Of a DNA stretch of 64,000 nucleotides, positions 346 through 12,000 are shown one piece after another. Numbering within the stretch: the stretch's first letter is position 1; the number at the start of each line of letters is the position of its first letter. Position numbers and translations under genes: made by a program. Source of the DNA: Sphagnum magellanicum (lineage: Eukaryota > Streptophyta > Sphagnopsida > Sphagnales > Sphagnaceae). The notes beneath the pieces were generated by a model. It did not search any database. It was given only the letters and a program-made list of their open reading frames with translations, and was not told the origin of the DNA. Location: assembly GCA_021904315.1 (NCBI GenBank), contig CM038914.1, forward strand, positions 23,175,065 to 23,239,064, written 5' to 3'.

Positions 346-1229
346 TAACCATGACAACTTATTGTCCTCACAAAGAATCAAGAGAAGGAGGTCTAGTTCA
401 GATTTGAACTCCCAACCAGAAGCTTCACAACCATACCTTTCAGCCCCTAAGGTACCTGAATCATTTACAAGCTTCCTTGTCATACATTTTCACTTTGCCT
501 ACTTTCCAATTTGTTTGTTTAGAGAAAAACAACATGAAATGATGTTAAAAACAATAGGAAGTGGATTCCTCATTATAGCCTCTTACATTAGGCCGACGAC
601 TCAATTACTATAACAAGTAGAATCGGTGAAAAGGAAATTTGTCAATTGGCATTGACTAAGAACATATTGAACTTGTAAGCATTGGAACTGTCATTGTAGA
701 TTATGAGTTAAGTTCAATGTGTAGTCTTAATCAAGCAACCTAAAGCATTAAAATGTTCTTGGACATTCTTATTGGGTTTGTGTCCCAATTCCTTGGAATT
801 GGAGACCGTAGTGGCCCAAATGTCCAGGAAAATGTCATGAAATACAAATGAACCAAACTAAATGGCTAAACTAACCAACCCAAACTTGAGAAAATATAAT
901 TCTTAGCATTAACCTTTATTGATTGGCATACATTCCACCTACTATGTGACAATATTTACTTAATTGAACTATTTCTTGAAACTTTGAGGTTTATGACACA
1001 CTCGAATGATCTTCATTTGCTAGTCATGCAAGATAATTTGGTATTCTCCAATTCATCTATTATTGTCTTCTTGTTAAACTTAATATTTTCAATTAATTAT
1101 TGTCTTTATCTAATTACTATAATTTATATATTGCAATTCTCTTATTTCGTGTATAATCAAATGATTTCCAAAAGACGTTTGAAAATTTCTGTTGACTTGT
1201 TTTCATTTTCTTTGTAGAAATATCTAGTG
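346..1229. other. AT-rich intergenic DNA
   Basis: The only open frames are short, low-complexity and hydrophobic, without any recognisable domain. No RNA gene or element end was seen. Confidence 0.6.
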
Positions 1230-4200
1230 CATGATTTAAATCCCACTTGCAATTCCAATCATCCAAACTTGACCATCATTTTTTTTCATGGGATTGCTTT
1301 TGGCACAAAGGATGAATGGAAGGAAACATGAACAACATGCCCCACCAACAATAGAAAAAAGTGCAGATGTTGGCTAGAAAAGTGGCTACTTGAAGACTTG
1401 AACAACAATGTTCGAATTTTATCATTGTTCTAGGATTCTAACATTGTGGCAAGTGTTCACAATGATGTGACTAAAATTGGCAAAAACCTCATCCAAAGTT
1501 TGGTTACAAATTCAAGGTGTGACAATCTCCTCTATTTATGGACACATTAATTACTATTCCTTGTGTACATTGAAGATAATTATTTGTAGCTTCATAATTT
1601 CTTAAATGTTTTGCACAAGTTAATTGTTCATGTGTGTTAGTATTGTGATACACACCAACAAGTTTCAATTTATTTGAATTGTTAAATTCATGTAGGAGAG
1701 CATAAAATGGGGCTAAAATGAACATGTTCTTGTTTGAAAATAATAGCGAAGTCTATGTTCATATTATAAGTTCATAGTACAACTAGTTTGGTTTTGATGG
1801 AAAATTTTAGTTCAAATTTTTTGAAATTTTATCTTTGGTAATGCAATTGAATTAAATTAAATTAAATTGATACATGTGTAGAAAATTTGCATCCATTTCA
1901 TTGCAAAAATATTATTTCCAAAAAAAAGTAGATCTTTTTTTTAATTTAAAATTCTTTCCATTTCAACAATATTTCCAAAGTAACACATAGAAGATGAGTT
2001 TTACATTAACACAAGAACATAAACACCTACATACTTGTCCATAATAATAGTTTTACCAAAACATGGTTGTCACATTTTTTAAGTAGATTAATGGAATCAA
2101 TAAATGACAAATGACAAGCAAATCAATTATGAACTTATGGCTCAAGTCATGTGTGAATTGAAAAATTGCCCAAAGTATAATAGGATAAATTTGTACATGC
2201 TAATACAATGTTGATAACAAAACTTTGGTGCATTGTTGATTATTTTGTAGTTATCAATCCTTTTGGGATGGACCGGTGGCATTAATTGCTTATAGTTTTG
2301 GAGGTTTTGTATTCAAAAACTTGGTGGTTGAAGGTCACAAACATGTACATTAAAGGCTAAGAAATGATTTGGATGATGAAATACACAAATGTTATGAAAC
2401 ATTTTTGAACAATGTTAAAGGTGTAGTATTTTATAGTGTACCACATGCTAGTGGTACCCAATCTTTATCAAATTATTTCATTTGGCAACATCAACAAATC
2501 AACACATTAACCAAGTATGCAACCCAAATTGGTTTTTTTTTTAATTTAGAATCTTTCAACGTACAAATGGAACACCTTTCAACAGATTTTAAAAATGCCC
2601 TTCATGAAAACCTCAACATTCTATCATTTGTTCCACAACCAATATGATAAATCTAATTTTTTGGAGGATGTGAATTCAAAGAACAATATCAATGATGTCA
2701 TAAAACAACTCCTACATGATTTGTGTGGCAAAAGGTTATGCAAGGATGAAAATGTGAATAAAAGAGACCTTGACAAAATTAGGCAATGTATCATATCAAA
2801 GAAAGTATTAGTGGTGGTGGATGATGTCAATAAGGAAGAGAACCTTACATCTTTGCCAATTTTCATTGATAAGGCTACAAAGAATCCAACTTTTAAAAGC
2901 AGAATACTTGTGAATTGTCAAAATTAGCAAAGTTTGAACTTTCATGTAAGTGAAAATGGAAAAGTGGACATGAAACCTTTGGAGGAAAAGCAAGCAAAGG
3001 AACTATTTATGTTCCATGCATTGGGTAATCGAAATCATGTTCCAATAGAAGATTTCAACGATATATGTATGAAGATTATAAAAGTTAGTGGGGGGCTCCC
3101 TTTAAGTTTTAAATTATTGGGTTCTTTTTTGTGCAATACTAAAAAATTAGAAATGTGGGAAGGTGCATTGAACAAATTGAAAAGTGGGCAAAGTTTCATA
3201 GGGGGCAATGATAATGAAAAGATGTGGAGTGTATTAAAGATTTTTTATAACCACTTGGATAAGCAAATTCAAAACATGTTTTTGGATATTGCTTGTTTTT
3301 CAGTGGTTTGAAAATAAGTACAATTTATCAAGTGTGGAGGGGAGATTATGAACAGCCAAAGTTTGAATTACAAAATCTACAACATAGATATTTAATCCAA
3401 TGGATAGAAGGTGGAATCTTGTATATACATGAACAATTACAAAACCTAGGTCAAAATATTACAATGGAACCACCAATTATAAATCGGTTTATATAGAAAT
3501 CAAATCAATCAAATTATTTTTTACAAAAGGATGAGGTTATCATTATACTATTTCAATCTTATAAATTTATTTAATTTCTTATGATTTTTTTTCTTGTTTG
3601 AAACAAATGTTTTAATTTTGAATCTTGATTTTATAAATACATGTTTTTAAATAAATTTTGGCATTACGATGAAATGTAATTTTATATTGATAATCCTTTT
3701 GTTTTCATTTCATCTAATAGGTGGTGAAAAATTTAGAGGTCATTTCATTGAAAAATGTCTCAATTTGCCTCTATTGTCCCAAATCAACTCAAAGGGATTT
3801 GGCAACCTTAGGTTGGTTGAACTAATAGGAGTTTCACCAACTATTGTGAAAAATTGCATCCAAGGGTGAAATTTGAATAATGTGAAATAGTTGTGCCTAA
3901 AAAAAATGCATGATTCAAAAGTTGCCAATTTATTTATTTTATTGTTTACAATTACAAGTATTTGATTTGGCACAATGCTAAAGTTTGGAAGAAATACCTT
4001 CATCTATTGGCCAATTGAATGCATTCCAAAAGCTTAATTTGTTAGGGTGTTCCAACTTGAAATAACTACCTTCATCTATTGGCCAATTGAATGCACTCCA
4101 AGAGCTTGATTTGTCAAGGTGTTCCAATTTGAAAGAACTACCTTCATCTATTGGCCAATTGAATGCACTTCAAAAGCTTGATTTGTCATGGTGTTCCAAT

Positions 4201-4345
4201 TTTAAAAAATTACCTTCATCTATTGGCCAATTGAATGCACTCCAAAAGCTTTATTTGTCATGGCGATTCAAATTGAAATAATTACTTTCATCTATTGAAA
4301 AAACTACCATCATCTATCGAACAATTAACTGCACTTCAAAAACTT
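1230..4345 (+). pseudogene. Broken alpha/beta-hydrolase-NB-ARC-LRR (HNL-type) immune receptor
   Basis: Pieces of one receptor lie in the expected order. Exon 1 (to 1516) encodes an alpha/beta-hydrolase start with FFHGIAFG and WLLEDLNNNVRILSL. It ends at a GT donor, and the frame resumes after TTTTGTAG at 2251. Exon 2 has the nucleophile elbow AYSFGG (near 2295) and GVVFYSVPHASG. Then come NB-ARC motifs: KKVLVVVDDVN (kinase-2, ~2805), SGGLPLSFKLLGSFL (GLPL, ~3090), MFLDIACF (RNBS-D, ~3280), a winged-helix stretch with LQNLQHRYLI (~3385) and leucine-rich repeats (3997-4330). The gene is dead. Stops interrupt exon 1 (for example a TGA where ETWTT is expected) and exon 2 (after HKHVH), and the NB-ARC region has further stops and frame changes. 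The segment that should carry the P-loop is missing between the hydrolase and the kinase-2 region. Hydrolase-NLRs were first described in Marchantia. Assignment to that class is from motif order, without an alignment. Confidence 0.82.
3997..4330 (+). repeat. 72-bp tandem LRR-coding repeats
   Basis: The phrase CCTTCATCTATTGGCCAATT recurs at 3997, 4069, 4141 and 4213, exactly 72 bp (24 codons) apart, with a more worn copy after 4285. Each unit encodes LPSSIGQLNALQKLDLS followed by a short variable stretch, the classic plant leucine-rich repeat. The units are so alike that recent unequal exchange or conversion is likely. They form the C-terminal part of the broken hydrolase-NLR. Confidence 0.88.
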
Positions 4346-4350
4346 GGTTT

Positions 4351-7300
4351 ATCAAGGAGTCTTAACATAACTACCCAACATTTTTAGTTTCTGTAATCCA
4401 TTTTAATTCATGTAATTGATTCAATTTTCCATTGTTTATTTTCATTTGTATTATTTTTTTACAATTATTTTTATAATGTTTCATTTTCTATTTTAGGGTA
4501 TGAAAATATTTTTCAAAAGCAACAAAACTTCAAGGCAAAACTTTTTTTTTTTAGATCCTTTTATTTGTCAAAGTGGCAAAATTACAAATTCAATATCACA
4601 AGGTCAAAATATTGAATTTGTAATTACTATGTTAAAATCAAATGTAGAAAAAATTCATAAAAGGAAAACTTTGAATCAACTATTGAATCAAATGTACAAA
4701 GTAAAAGATTTATAAGAAGAAAAGTTATGGATCAATTCTTTCAATGTTCATGTGTTTTGGATACCATTCACCCAATCCCCTTTCATGAGCAAACACCATG
4801 GCAACCTTAAGTCCCAACAATCCAACATAAGACCCTAAGCATCCTCATGGATCCAAAACATTAACCTAATTTTTACATCATTTCCACAACTCTTCCCCCT
4901 AATCCTTTATTATGCAGGTGTTACAAATAAGAATCAAAGTTATCAAACAAAGTTTGTCAAGAGTATAAAACATTCAGAATTAGACCTTATCTCCTACATT
5001 TGATATTCCTAAATTGGGGAGAAACTTAGGATCAACTACATATGTAATGTTAATAAGGTAATTTTGCAAATGACTAAAAAAATGGCTAGAGGTAGTGTTA
5101 ACATTGATTGTTTCAAAAGGGCAACGCGGAAAAATGGTATCCAATCAATCCTTATATTTGGGTAGCTCTTTTTCAAACATGGCGTTCCAAAATGAATTTT
5201 CTAAATCCATCATAGATCCAAATCCGTTAGATCTGTCAATGCCAAAATCTACAACTTGCACCATTCTTCTTTCAATTCATAAAACCAACACCAAATGCAT
5301 TAGGAATTTGACTTAATTTGCAGAGCCAACAAATGGTGCAACTAATTAAGATTATAACTAAAAAATGGAACACCAAGTAGGATATCAAAATGAGGTCTTT
5401 TAAATGTAATAGCAATGGAAAAATCAAGAACCTGAAGTACAGGAGAACCTCTAGCTACACCATCAAACACAACATTAATACCACCAGATACAACACTAAT
5501 ACCACCAACAATATCAAAATGCATTTCTTCAACATAATCACTGTAGACCTGCAAAATCGAAAATTGTATAAAGAAAACAAACACACAAAAAACAAATCAC
5601 TAACCACTTCATCCACCTACCTTAGTCTTTTCATACACGCCTTTCTCCTCGTTAAAAGTTTCTTCAAAACATAATAACTAGCCAAATCTACACTCACCAA
5701 AAATAATCCACTCCATCATTCAATTGCGTAAATGTTTGTCAATATGGTTATATTTATAAAAACAAGTAATTGCCACTTCAAAAAAATCAAACAAATTCAA
5801 ATAATTTTTAAAAAAAAGGTTCATAAATTTACTTGCCATGTGAAATAAGGTCCTTATGGCATGTTATGACGCGCTCCTAAGTCCCTAGTTTAGACCCAAG
5901 TTGGGTCTAAGTTATTATCATAGCGGAATTGTGAAGAACTTGGGGCACGCTCCTAGTTCTCAGCATTAAAAGGGTAGAGGGGTGTGTTGAAGCTCCGAGA
6001 TTGGACTAGGAAGAGGGACAAGTTATTCTCTCACTCGAACCTGCATCAAACCAACCAAGAAGTTGGTTAGTTCACATTCTGGAGCACCCTTGGTGCTAGG
6101 ACAAGCCACGAGCAACTTTGGATTCATTTGACTCACCACGGCTCGGACTCGGGGGAAACCACCACCTTCCCCCATATAGTATATTATGCGCTTCTCCGCG
6201 GCATCCACATCTGAATGGTTTTTTGTCCCAGGACTCCCAAGGAGGAGTCCCGATATTGTCCCGGTTTAGACTCCCGGGACTTTACACGATCATAACTTTT
6301 TGCTCAGACCTCCGATTGGGATGAAGTCTCAAGCAAAGTTGTAGCTCTCCTCAAGAGCTTTTCAACAGTGTGTTGCACTCCACCTGCACGCACTAGGGTT
6401 GGGTCAATTCCCGACTTTTAGTGGTCGGGAGTCAAACTGCCAATTTGACTTTCGGCCCTTCTTTTGGCCATAACTTGTGCTACAAATGTCCAAATGGTCC
6501 ATGTGAGGCCATTTTCGACATTTACACTTCAATAGCTTTTCAATGATATAAAACACACCCCAATGCGAGGTGTTTTGACCCTTATAATCGAACTCTAAAG
6601 TTTCGGGAGTCTCGGAGGACTCCCAAGTCCCAATTTCGAGAGTGTGAGTTTCATCCTCACACTTCCCTCAAAGTGGGGTTGCAATATGTTACTTCCATAC
6701 CACACTCACAAGGTACAAATGCTTCTTACATTCTTGTAATTCCAACACCTTGGCTTGTTTTGTTTGACAATTTGTTTTATGTAAATCAAGGAAATCAGTA
6801 GTCAACTTGTCCATAATCAAACAAAGCTAGTTACAACCAATAGGAATAGTCATAAACCATACCTCACCAAAAGCCTTCCACCTAGCTCAGGACGTAAAAA
6901 CAATGAATGTGGACTTAATTTTTCATCAAGACACTCAAATGGACATCAATGAACAAGTTTTTTAAGAGTTTCAATCACATCAAAAATTGAGTAATCAACT
7001 ATAGGCTGATGCCAATCTACAAAACAATAGGTTATGTCTATTCTCCAATTTTTGGAAATGCCTTGACAAAACTTTAAAACAATGTTAATAGGTAAAGACA
7101 ACAAACTGAACTCATCAAAATTTGAACCACGAAGTTTAAAACACCCCTTTATGAAAAAAAAATTCACGTGTAAAAATATCTGAAACGCAAATTCAAACCA
7201 AATGGGGAGGTCAACTAACACATTGCTTGTGTTAATATTTTACACTCTTCCTGAACAAACAAAACATTTAACTTCTTGACAGTTTTGCCAAGATTTATTG

Positions 7301-8884: not shown

Positions 8885-8940
8885 AAACCCTAATTGAAAC
8901 AAACCCTAAGTCAGGAAACCCTAATTTTCGAAAACCCTAA
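8885..8940 (+). promoter_or_regulatory. Cluster of four teloboxes
   Basis: AAACCCTAA occurs at 8885, 8901, 8916 and 8932, four copies within 56 bp, 140-200 bp before the RH5 start codon. Teloboxes are known from promoters and 5' leaders of plant ribosomal-protein and ribosome-biogenesis genes, where Myb-like telobox-binding proteins act. The cluster fits growth-linked control of the helicase downstream. Confidence 0.75.
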
Positions 8941-9080
8941 TTCTGTTGCATCGCTTCGTTTCACAGCCTCTGTTTTACAGAGACAAAAGAGAGAGAGAGA
9001 GAGTTGCGTGTTTTGCAGCGGGTATTTTTCGATCTCGCGCAGTTGCAGGAGATCGGAGTTGATTCGAGAATTTAAGGACA

Positions 9081-12000
9081 ATGGGTGGGAAGGAGAAGGA
9101 GGTAAAGGTTCTGGCGATGAAAGGAGCGGAGGAATCCTTGTCTGATCAAATTTCTAACAAGAAGAAGATGAAGAAAAAGAAGAGAGAGGTTGAAGAGAAA
9201 CGATTTGAACAAGAAGAAGTGAGCAATGATTCAAGCAAGAAAAAGAAGAAGGAACGAAGGGAGGAATCTACACAAGAAGCTGACACAGAAGTTGAAGAAC
9301 CTGTGAAGAAAAAGAAGAAGAAGCAGATAAAGGAGAAAAAGGAAAGGGAAGTGGATGACAACAGGAGTTTGAAGAAGAACCTCAATACGGGAGCTGAGGA
9401 AACTGCGGTAGTGAGAGGAACTGCAGAAGCGCAGCTCTGCGTTACGGTTTCTGGTAATGGCAGTGCTGATCCCAAGTTCGCGCCTCTGGAGAGTTTTGAT
9501 CTTGAGGGTGTACCAACAAGTGTGTTGGAGTGCTGTAAAACCTTTGCTAAGCCGTCGCCGATTCAGTCGCATGCTTGGCCTTTCCTGTTGGCGGGACGTG
9601 ATCTTGTCGGGATTGCTGCCACTGGCTCCGGTTCGCATTCTTTTGTCCTCTGTCTCTCTTCGCTCTTGTGACATGTAAATGGGTGCGCGAATGAAGCTGC
9701 AGCAGCCATCTGCCCCTAGAATCCATGCGAGTTTCAGTGTTGACGGAGAATTTCTTCTTGCTCTTCATGTACAAACTTAGCGTGTCTTGTGTGTGTCCTT
9801 TGCTATCAAGAGGGAGGAATTCAAGTGCAGATGAACTACATCACATGTCCAACAGTGCAATGTCTTAAACACATGAATACAGTCCTGTGGGATCCAGTGC
9901 AAAAAAATTGTGGCTCTCTTCTTCCCATTTTGCCTCTCTCCTCATATGTCAGGACAAGATACTTTTTGGTATCTTGTCGTTCAATGCAGTGCAGGTAAAA
10001 CACTGGCATTTGGGATTCCTGCAATGACACATGTGTTGAAGAAGAAGAAGGAGAAGAAAGCAACTACACCCCTTTGTCTTGTATTGTCACCAACTCGAGA
10101 GTTGGCACAACAGGTGACTCCCCTTCACTTGCTAGTCTATTGCATTTTATTATTCCTTTTATGTGTCCTCCCCAGTACTCTCTTCTGAAATTCCTTGCTG
10201 CAGTTTGTATGACCCTGCATGGATTTTTGCAACTAATGTAACTAATGCAACTAATCCCTAGTTTCTTCAAGCTGTAGCTGGAGATTTGACATTCTGTGCT
10301 CTCTCTTGGTGAGTATGTCACTCTCTGTTGGGAGTTGATTTCAGCTACTGAACCTCATGTTGGTGTTTGCAGATTGCAGATGTGTTGGAGGAGGCAGGGA
10401 GTGGATGTGGGGTGAAGACTGCCTGTATATATGGTGGGACTTCAAAGGGACCTCAAAGGTCTGCACTGAGAGCTGGTGCGGTAAGTATTGAATCATAATG
10501 CCAAACAGTGGAATTTCAATCTTGAACCTGAACTGTAGAGCTGTTAATAATAAAAAATTGCCTCTTTGTGCAATAGGTAGAGACAGTTGAACATCCATCC
10601 AAGGTCATCATTGTGACTTGGAGAATGGTATTTGATGTTTGACACTGATTGTGGGTCTGGTAACTCATATTGACAGACAATTATTATTGCAACACCAGGA
10701 AGGCTTCAAGACTTGATGGAGGAAGGTGTTTGCTCATTGGATCAAGTGTCTTATTTGGTTTGTATCCATCCTAAGCTCTTGAACCCATTTACTGCCTACT
10801 CAAACAGAACTTAAGGCTTTTGTTTTGCAATTGGATATTCCTGTGCAATACCACCTGCAAACATTCTTCACAGATGAATATCTGACATTGGTTTTGCATG
10901 AGGGTTTCCAGGTTTTGGATGAGGCAGATCGGATGTTAGACTTGGGGTTTGAGCCAGCCATTCGTGCTATCATTAGCAAGACCTCAAAAAGTAAGCTTCA
11001 CTTTTCACAAGAAGACACTAGGAGTATAGTACACAAATGTCTCCATCAAGTAACTAGCAGGAAATGTCAGGTCACCCAGAAACCTGTTGATCTGGTTATC
11101 TCCATGTTCTGTTATACGTATCTCTGTGTTCCATAGTTTTGACTGTATCCTATTTTCTGTCAAAGTAATGTTTGATCTGCAAGCCTTCACAGTGACCTTT
11201 AATTGTACTATTGTGGGTCAGGTTTTCTCACAGTTGGTTCAATGTATTTGAGATGGGTGCAGTTAGGCAGACGGTGATGTTCAGTGCAACTTGGCCTTTG
11301 GCTGTTGATCAGCTGGCAAGAGAATTTATGAATGACCCCAGCCCAGTCAAGGTCTTCTAGCTTCTCTCTCTTCTGCCGTTTGCTGCTCTCTTCCACAAAA
11401 TAGCATCCACCTTCTTTTTCCCTCAATATGAGAGCTTGGTCCAGTTATCTGACGTGTTGCTGACTTGTATATGATGAACATGCAGGTTATGGTAGGATCA
11501 CAAGATTTGGCTGCAAATCATGATGTGACACAAATTGTTGAGGTATGAGAAGACAACAATGATTTGTGGAATTGGGGTTTCTAAATTGACACTAGTGAAC
11601 ATGGATATTGTTTTTGAATTTTCTGTAGGACAGCAATAGAACAGTATTTGGAACTTCTGAAAGGGAATGTAATTGAGTTGAGAGAAGCTTAAGGGTCTGT
11701 GTTGGTGGACTTGGCAGGTATTGGAAGACAGAGCTCGAGATGCACGTCTTGATTCTCTTCTTCAAAAGTATCACAAATCACGAACGTAAGATTAATTTCC
11801 ATTCTTGTTTCCTTCCCAACTAGCAACTCTCCGCTTGATTTGTGCTCCCAGGTATGGAAGAGGTCATATGCTGGTAAATTTACTTGTCAAGTAGAAGAGT
11901 GTTTGGTTTTGCTGCACCTCCTCTGAGCTGCAACTTGGTGATTTGTGCAGGAACCGGGTTTTGGTGTTTGTACTCTACAAGAAAGAGGCAGACCGTGTTG

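Follow-up and report, generated by a model that had tools for sequence, protein, structure and literature searches.

What was the broken gene near the start of this stretch of peat moss DNA, what disabled it and how did it come to stand there? A sequence-only reading had seen at 1230-4345 the remains of an alpha/beta-hydrolase NB-ARC-LRR receptor (HNL, also called Hyd-NLR) and had assigned it to an immune-receptor class found outside seed plants, in agreement with the literature, where the class is described as bryophyte-enriched (PMC3352924, PMC11218826). We analyzed the window, by which we mean the whole stretch of 64,000 nucleotides at G000:C8:23175065-23239064, and searched the genome to which it belongs (438,994,042 bases on 31 contigs). 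On the evidence of sequence comparison, we give a probability of about 95% to the reading that window 1218-4297 is a decayed HNL pseudogene. By itself this piece is unremarkable, a pseudogene from a receptor class already known; what deserves following is the duplication of a tagged block of DNA to which it seems to belong.

Anatomy and decay of the window copy

The gene remains comprise the following parts, in window coordinates:

1-128, + strand: tentative piece of a first coding exon, conserved in the C8, C12 and C17 copies; the ATG of this putative exon would fall just left of the window
1218-1516, + strand: hydrolase exon 1, with the motif HGIAFG and in-frame stops at 1329 and 1431
1517-2250, + strand: phase-2 intron with GT...AG borders
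2251-2620, + strand: hydrolase exon 2, with the nucleophile motif YSFGG, the motif SVPHASG and an in-frame stop at 2351; its last part is lost
2618-2620, + strand: deletion junction with a 3-bp shared ATT, 1,021 bp missing relative to the paralogue L033, and hydrolase and NB-ARC joined out of frame
2621-3535, + strand: NB-ARC and winged-helix remains, with a stop at 2925 and a 1-bp frameshift at about 3296
3536-3720, + strand: intron between the NB-ARC and LRR exons, with borders set by homology; phase 0 in L033
3721-4297, + strand: LRR exon remains, with 72-bp repeats at 3984-4297 (4.4 units) and short similarities to about 4375

Most of what the sequence-only reading had described was borne out. 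The three hydrolase motifs were found where it had put them, in the exon at 1218-1516 and in the exon beginning at 2251, and the intron that it had proposed between the two is frame-consistent, with the same phase-2 junction keeping the L033 frame open. NB-ARC motifs and LRRs follow in the order it gave: Pfam recognized NB-ARC (PF00931) over the cut-off in two pieces (E = 1.2e-5, profile 48-120; E = 3.1e-8, profile 148-247) and LRR families 3' of it, and within window 1200-4500 the NB-ARC text is read from 2621 and the LRR repeats from 3978. A Roq1-type winged helix was matched weakly, under the cut-off (E = 0.0087). The proposed extent held for the core and failed at the start, as homology to other copies is present from window position 1 and continues beyond the left edge for about 4.6 kb; at the other end, LRR homology stops at ~4297, after which short matches reach as far as about 4375. 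Positions 1-279 are 92-94% identical to three copies.

The window hydrolase piece at 2354-2647 (97 aa) matched no Pfam family when searched alone, and for this reason it was from spliced paralogues that we identified the hydrolase. The paralogue L033 (C8:7.86 Mb), spliced from its second exon on, has an open frame of 1,075 aa (79 and 69 stops in the other frames) made up of DUF676 serine-esterase, NB-ARC, Roq1-type winged-helix and LRR parts. Residues 1-287 of the spliced frame match DUF676 (putative serine esterase) at E = 1.8e-5 and 24.8 bits, compared to a curated cut-off of 20.3, and the next part matches NB-ARC (E = 2.9e-32) and WHD_ROQ1 (E = 1e-9). Its intron phases, from exon lengths, are 2, 0, 0 and 0. 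L033 is largely intact but may not be perfect, because the acceptor before hydrolase exon 1 reads AA, not AG.

DUF676 was matched in all four spliced members at E up to 0.1. Against solved structures, the spliced hydrolase domain gave no match as a single sequence, and the hydrolase profile gave two only, with unrelated names (E = 0.91 and 2.1). Among ten close copies, the splice borders of the three hydrolase exons are kept at all 30 donors and at 28 of the 30 acceptors, and four copies have a stop within the hydrolase. YSFGG and the histidine of NHLTICKP are conserved in all ten and the glutamate between them in nine; in view of this conservation, we take the serine, glutamate and histidine to be the putative catalytic residues. 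At the DNA level, the window shares 86-94% identity with these copies in its two hydrolase exons; the copies splice into DUF676 and, in L033, continue into NB-ARC and LRR, in keeping with the earlier identification of HNL remains.

Compared with L033, the window DNA is collinear at 85-92% identity with a single large gap, corresponding to L033 3107-4127 (1,021 bases). This accounts for the missing P-loop region, which had been noticed from the sequence: homology breaks at 2618-2620 and resumes 1,021 bp on in L033, which has the P-loop, and the gap also took the last part of hydrolase exon 2, hydrolase exon 3 and the beginning of the NB-ARC exon. Both phase-0 introns that precede NB-ARC are gone as well, while the phase-2 intron and the intron behind NB-ARC are retained. 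A single deletion would thus have removed both the hydrolase end, with its putative catalytic histidine, and the P-loop. The resulting hydrolase-to-NB-ARC spacing of 574 bases is the shortest among 128 listed pairs (median, 1,585 bases). The 1-bp shift was seen relative to all four copies compared, and the array of 4.4 LRR units is much longer in L033. Because the deletion is joined by four in-frame stops, the frameshift and the shortened LRR array, the window copy is not expected to make a receptor, and its function has presumably been lost. Private substitutions in the two hydrolase exons number 7, 8 and 6 at codon positions 1, 2 and 3, an even spread that is no mark of a dead copy because some stop-free copies (for example, L044) are similar.

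Several other features lie in or beside the window. Relative to three paralogues, 280-346 is a short insertion, in which 292-341 is an inverted match to the paralogues' neighboring sequence. A high-copy repeat of about 650 bases lies at 5866-6682, with an inverted copy left of the window (-6037 to -5390), and occurs at 87-89% identity in at least 36 places in the genome (best 40 of 6,298 candidates scored). At ~8900-11200 on the + strand are DEAD-box RNA helicase-like pieces, one of which matches PF00270 below the curated cut-off (E = 2.4e-4) and a second of which gave no match.

The hydrolase receptor family and its NB-ARC class

Intact paralogues in the same genome had been proposed as a check, and copies with open hydrolase and NB-ARC exons are indeed present, in a large family. 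The hydrolase piece has at least 150 matches in the genome (best 150 of 284 candidates), 118 of these 150 without a stop in the matched stretch, and the NB-ARC piece likewise at least 150 (best 150 of 317 candidates); for 128 of the 150 listed hydrolase-exon matches, an NB-ARC match lies no more than 6 kb downstream on the same strand. The best matches of the hydrolase part were not unrelated proteins but copies whose exons splice into DUF676, followed in L033 by NB-ARC and LRR. Using PF01582, the sole TIR model searched, we obtained 32 matches, with all 32 candidates scored. Hydrolase receptors look to be the larger class in this genome, by roughly 4:1 (at least 150, 128 of them with NB-ARC, versus 32). 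The homology of the window is far beyond chance, because a 1.7-kb intron-bearing stretch returned 40 rows on 14 contigs (best 40 of 182 candidates, window included), of which the 39 others have 86-91% DNA identity, most over the full length.

To place the NB-ARC remains, we used a maximum-likelihood tree of 29 rows from this genome, including 11 TIR-NLRs (TNLs) and six other NB-ARC genes, and leaving out L029, L057, L003, L006 and the N-terminal NB piece of the window. The window piece (124 aa, filling 36% of the columns) falls among the HNLs with support of 98/99, next to copies from C18, C2 and C1, and does not group with the hydrolase-less TIR-NLRs. HNLs, TNLs and the six other genes form one group each, the first two separated at 97/98 and 98/97 and together set against the six at 100/100, in a tree with two long branches flagged and a root that serves for drawing only. 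The locus is not a member of the TIR-NLRs, given that hydrolase exons precede its NB-ARC and that this piece stands outside all 11 TNLs. Elsewhere in the genome, at G000:C5:7518058-7522344 (L051), a TIR exon lies a few kb from fragments of 5' flank and of NB-ARC that resemble HNL, which may mark a junction of the two receptor classes.

These data bear on two other accounts of the locus. The winged helix of the window resembles the Roq1 type, which belongs to TIR-NLRs, so the locus might consist of two unrelated fragments, a TIR-NLR remnant that came by chance to stand beside a hydrolase gene. We give this almost no credence: the same pairing on the same strand recurs at most of the listed hydrolase-exon matches, and the split between HNL and TNL, with the window inside HNL, refutes the idea for this genome. 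It is also very improbable that the locus still yields something useful, whether a truncated product or a regulatory RNA, for although three open pieces survive (97, 125 and 127 aa), they are set among four in-frame stops, a frame switch and a 1-bp shift in a copy with no P-loop and a truncated LRR.

The origin of the junction at 2618-2620 is less clear-cut, as recombination between two HNL copies, one C12-like and one C18-like, might have made it through gene conversion or unequal exchange in place of an internal deletion. Left of the junction, the nearest listed copy is C12:15.85 Mb (91%, compared to 87% for the C18 copy). In four segments to the right, C18:2.16 Mb has 92.0, 90.8, 88.1 and 88.9% identity and C12 has 88.6, 88.6, 84.7 and 86.9%; the C18 copy is the nearest of those compared in three segments and C1 in one, and the tree also puts the NB piece of the window with C18, C2 and C1 copies. 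Because its 5' part is nearest C12 and its 3' part nearest C18 (C1 in one segment), the window copy may be a mosaic. However, the 2-4% differences are small among copies that are about 8-18% apart and may convert often, they come from the part of the copies compared on both sides of the junction, and the 3 bp of shared sequence fit an ordinary deletion. Exchange between copies is thus possible but somewhat doubtful, and we continue to prefer an internal deletion in an HNL gene.

Shared flanks and a kinase tag

Beside the HNL remains, just outside the window, lies one further feature:

about G000:C8:23170455-23172297, - strand: 5'-truncated, broken MAPKKK copy (L061, L035), just left of the window and divergent to the HNL remains

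The tail of this MAPKKK occurs at 23 loci in the genome (32 rows merged). With HNL neighbors sought only among the best 150 of 284 hydrolase-exon matches, 12 of the 23 loci lie 5.6-6.4 kb upstream of an HNL hydrolase exon in divergent orientation; they are distributed over seven contigs (C8, C12, C17, C9, C1, C10 and C2), and one of them (C8:8.26 Mb) rests on a 24-residue match only. Two other loci are divergent at 14 and 20 kb, five sit 3' of an HNL at distances of 13-20 kb, and for four (C16, C13, C12:12.76 Mb and C3) there is no HNL within 30 kb. The L033 copy has no MAPKKK in the 4 kb to its left.

We take the source of the tag to be a MAPKKK of the ANP/NPK1 type. The tag corresponds to the 3' part of such a gene and, unlike it, is missing the part of the kinase domain that precedes HRD in the four copies that we examined, so that it is no working kinase. 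A working pair of divergent MAPKKK and HNL genes, which the near-constant distance of 5.6-6.4 kb might bring to mind, was rejected: the four fragments examined have lost the N-lobe of the kinase, and stops interrupt several copies. An open-frame MAPKKK with a nearly complete Pkinase domain (profile 10-263) is found at C8:22.69 Mb (L073), about 0.5 Mb from the window. In each of the four copies examined (those of the window, C12, C17 and C8:23.07 Mb), homology to L073 sets in at one and the same position, L073:1685, at 94-95% identity, and this shared MAPKKK breakpoint points to a single founding block or join as the simplest reading. Because the open MAPKKK stands on C8, we infer that the founding took place on that contig.

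The flanks tell of similar sharing. Apart from insertions in C12 and C17, the C12 and C17 copies are collinear with the window for about 4.3-4.6 kb to its left, and at least 1.4 kb of 5' flank is common to many close copies. Copies also exist of a 1.4-kb piece of the left flank, and 32 of 40 rows have a hydrolase exon no more than 8 kb downstream on the same strand (best 40 of 1,994 candidates scored; of 81 rows the first 40 were used, some of them pieces of one copy, and the other 41 are shorter pieces). A mobile element with fixed ends was not supported as the carrier: the left edges of homology differ (about -4610 for the window versus C17, -4522 versus C12), no sharp shared end could be seen by eye and the right side is shared at length by some copies only.

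Together, the sequences suggest that whole blocks carrying HNL receptor genes were copied from one chromosome to another. The window copy would have been born by duplication of a block holding the gene, its introns, several kb of 5' flank and the 5'-truncated MAPKKK. We lean toward a specific form of this history, in which the HNL family, besides duplicating locally in tandem, moved from chromosome to chromosome as a large block of DNA. A founder on C8 would have fused to the 3' two-thirds of a neighboring MAPKKK, and copies that took introns and flanks along would then have reached C1, C2, C9, C10, C12 and C17. If so, the fused MAPKKK breakpoint would be a shared derived mark for tracing NLR birth and death across Sphagnum species. 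More generally, how members of an NLR class found outside seed plants were duplicated and died, a history that is hard to follow in tandem clusters, could be reconstructed here because copies share 5' flanks and, in some cases, a kinase tag that could be dated. While the HNL class is already known in bryophytes, the duplication of its copies with long flanks is the new point; neither HNL block duplication nor a linked MAPKKK is named in the listed titles and opening parts of abstracts of open-licence literature on Sphagnum and bryophyte NLRs.

Comparison with known hydrolase receptors

The HNL class of Marchantia polymorpha, with an N-terminal alpha/beta-hydrolase followed by NB-ARC and LRR (Xue et al. 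2012, PMC3352924), has the same domain order as the family described here. Its published introns are one of phase 0 within the hydrolase, one of phase 0 before NB-ARC and one behind NB-ARC (PMC3352924); compared by phase, the phase-0 introns of L033 and the one behind NB-ARC fit this description. L033 differs in having an extra phase-2 hydrolase intron, the one seen in the sequence-only reading, and the window copy differs in being dead. The term 'pseudogen-' does not occur in the main text of the later bryophyte survey (PMC11218826).

In Nicotiana, ion leakage and cell-death-like responses followed from two hydrolase domains of Marchantia (Chia et al. 2024, PMC11218826). Intact relatives of the window copy would work like other NLRs, with the LRR sensing, the NB-ARC switching with nucleotide and the DUF676-like serine-hydrolase domain probably carrying out the response.

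As for distribution, Xue et al. 2012 recovered no HNL-like sequence from mosses, whereas the later survey did (PMC3352924, PMC11218826); the survey also notes a TIR-NLR expansion in mosses (PMC11218826). The NB-ARC of Marchantia HNLs was placed nearer TNL than CNL (Xue et al. 2012, PMC3352924), and the NB-ARC tree of bryophyte Hyd-NLRs, including those of Sphagnum, puts most of them near bryophyte TIR-NLRs (Chia et al. 2024, PMC11218826), with a minor Sphagnum subclade within the CC/RPW8 clade (PMC11218826). The window family does not fall on the CC/RPW8 side, provided that the six other NB-ARC genes of our tree are CC-type. It shares the architecture of the bryophyte Hyd-NLRs (PMC11218826), and the grouping of HNL with TNL against other NB-ARC genes in our tree agrees with both published descriptions (PMC3352924, PMC11218826).
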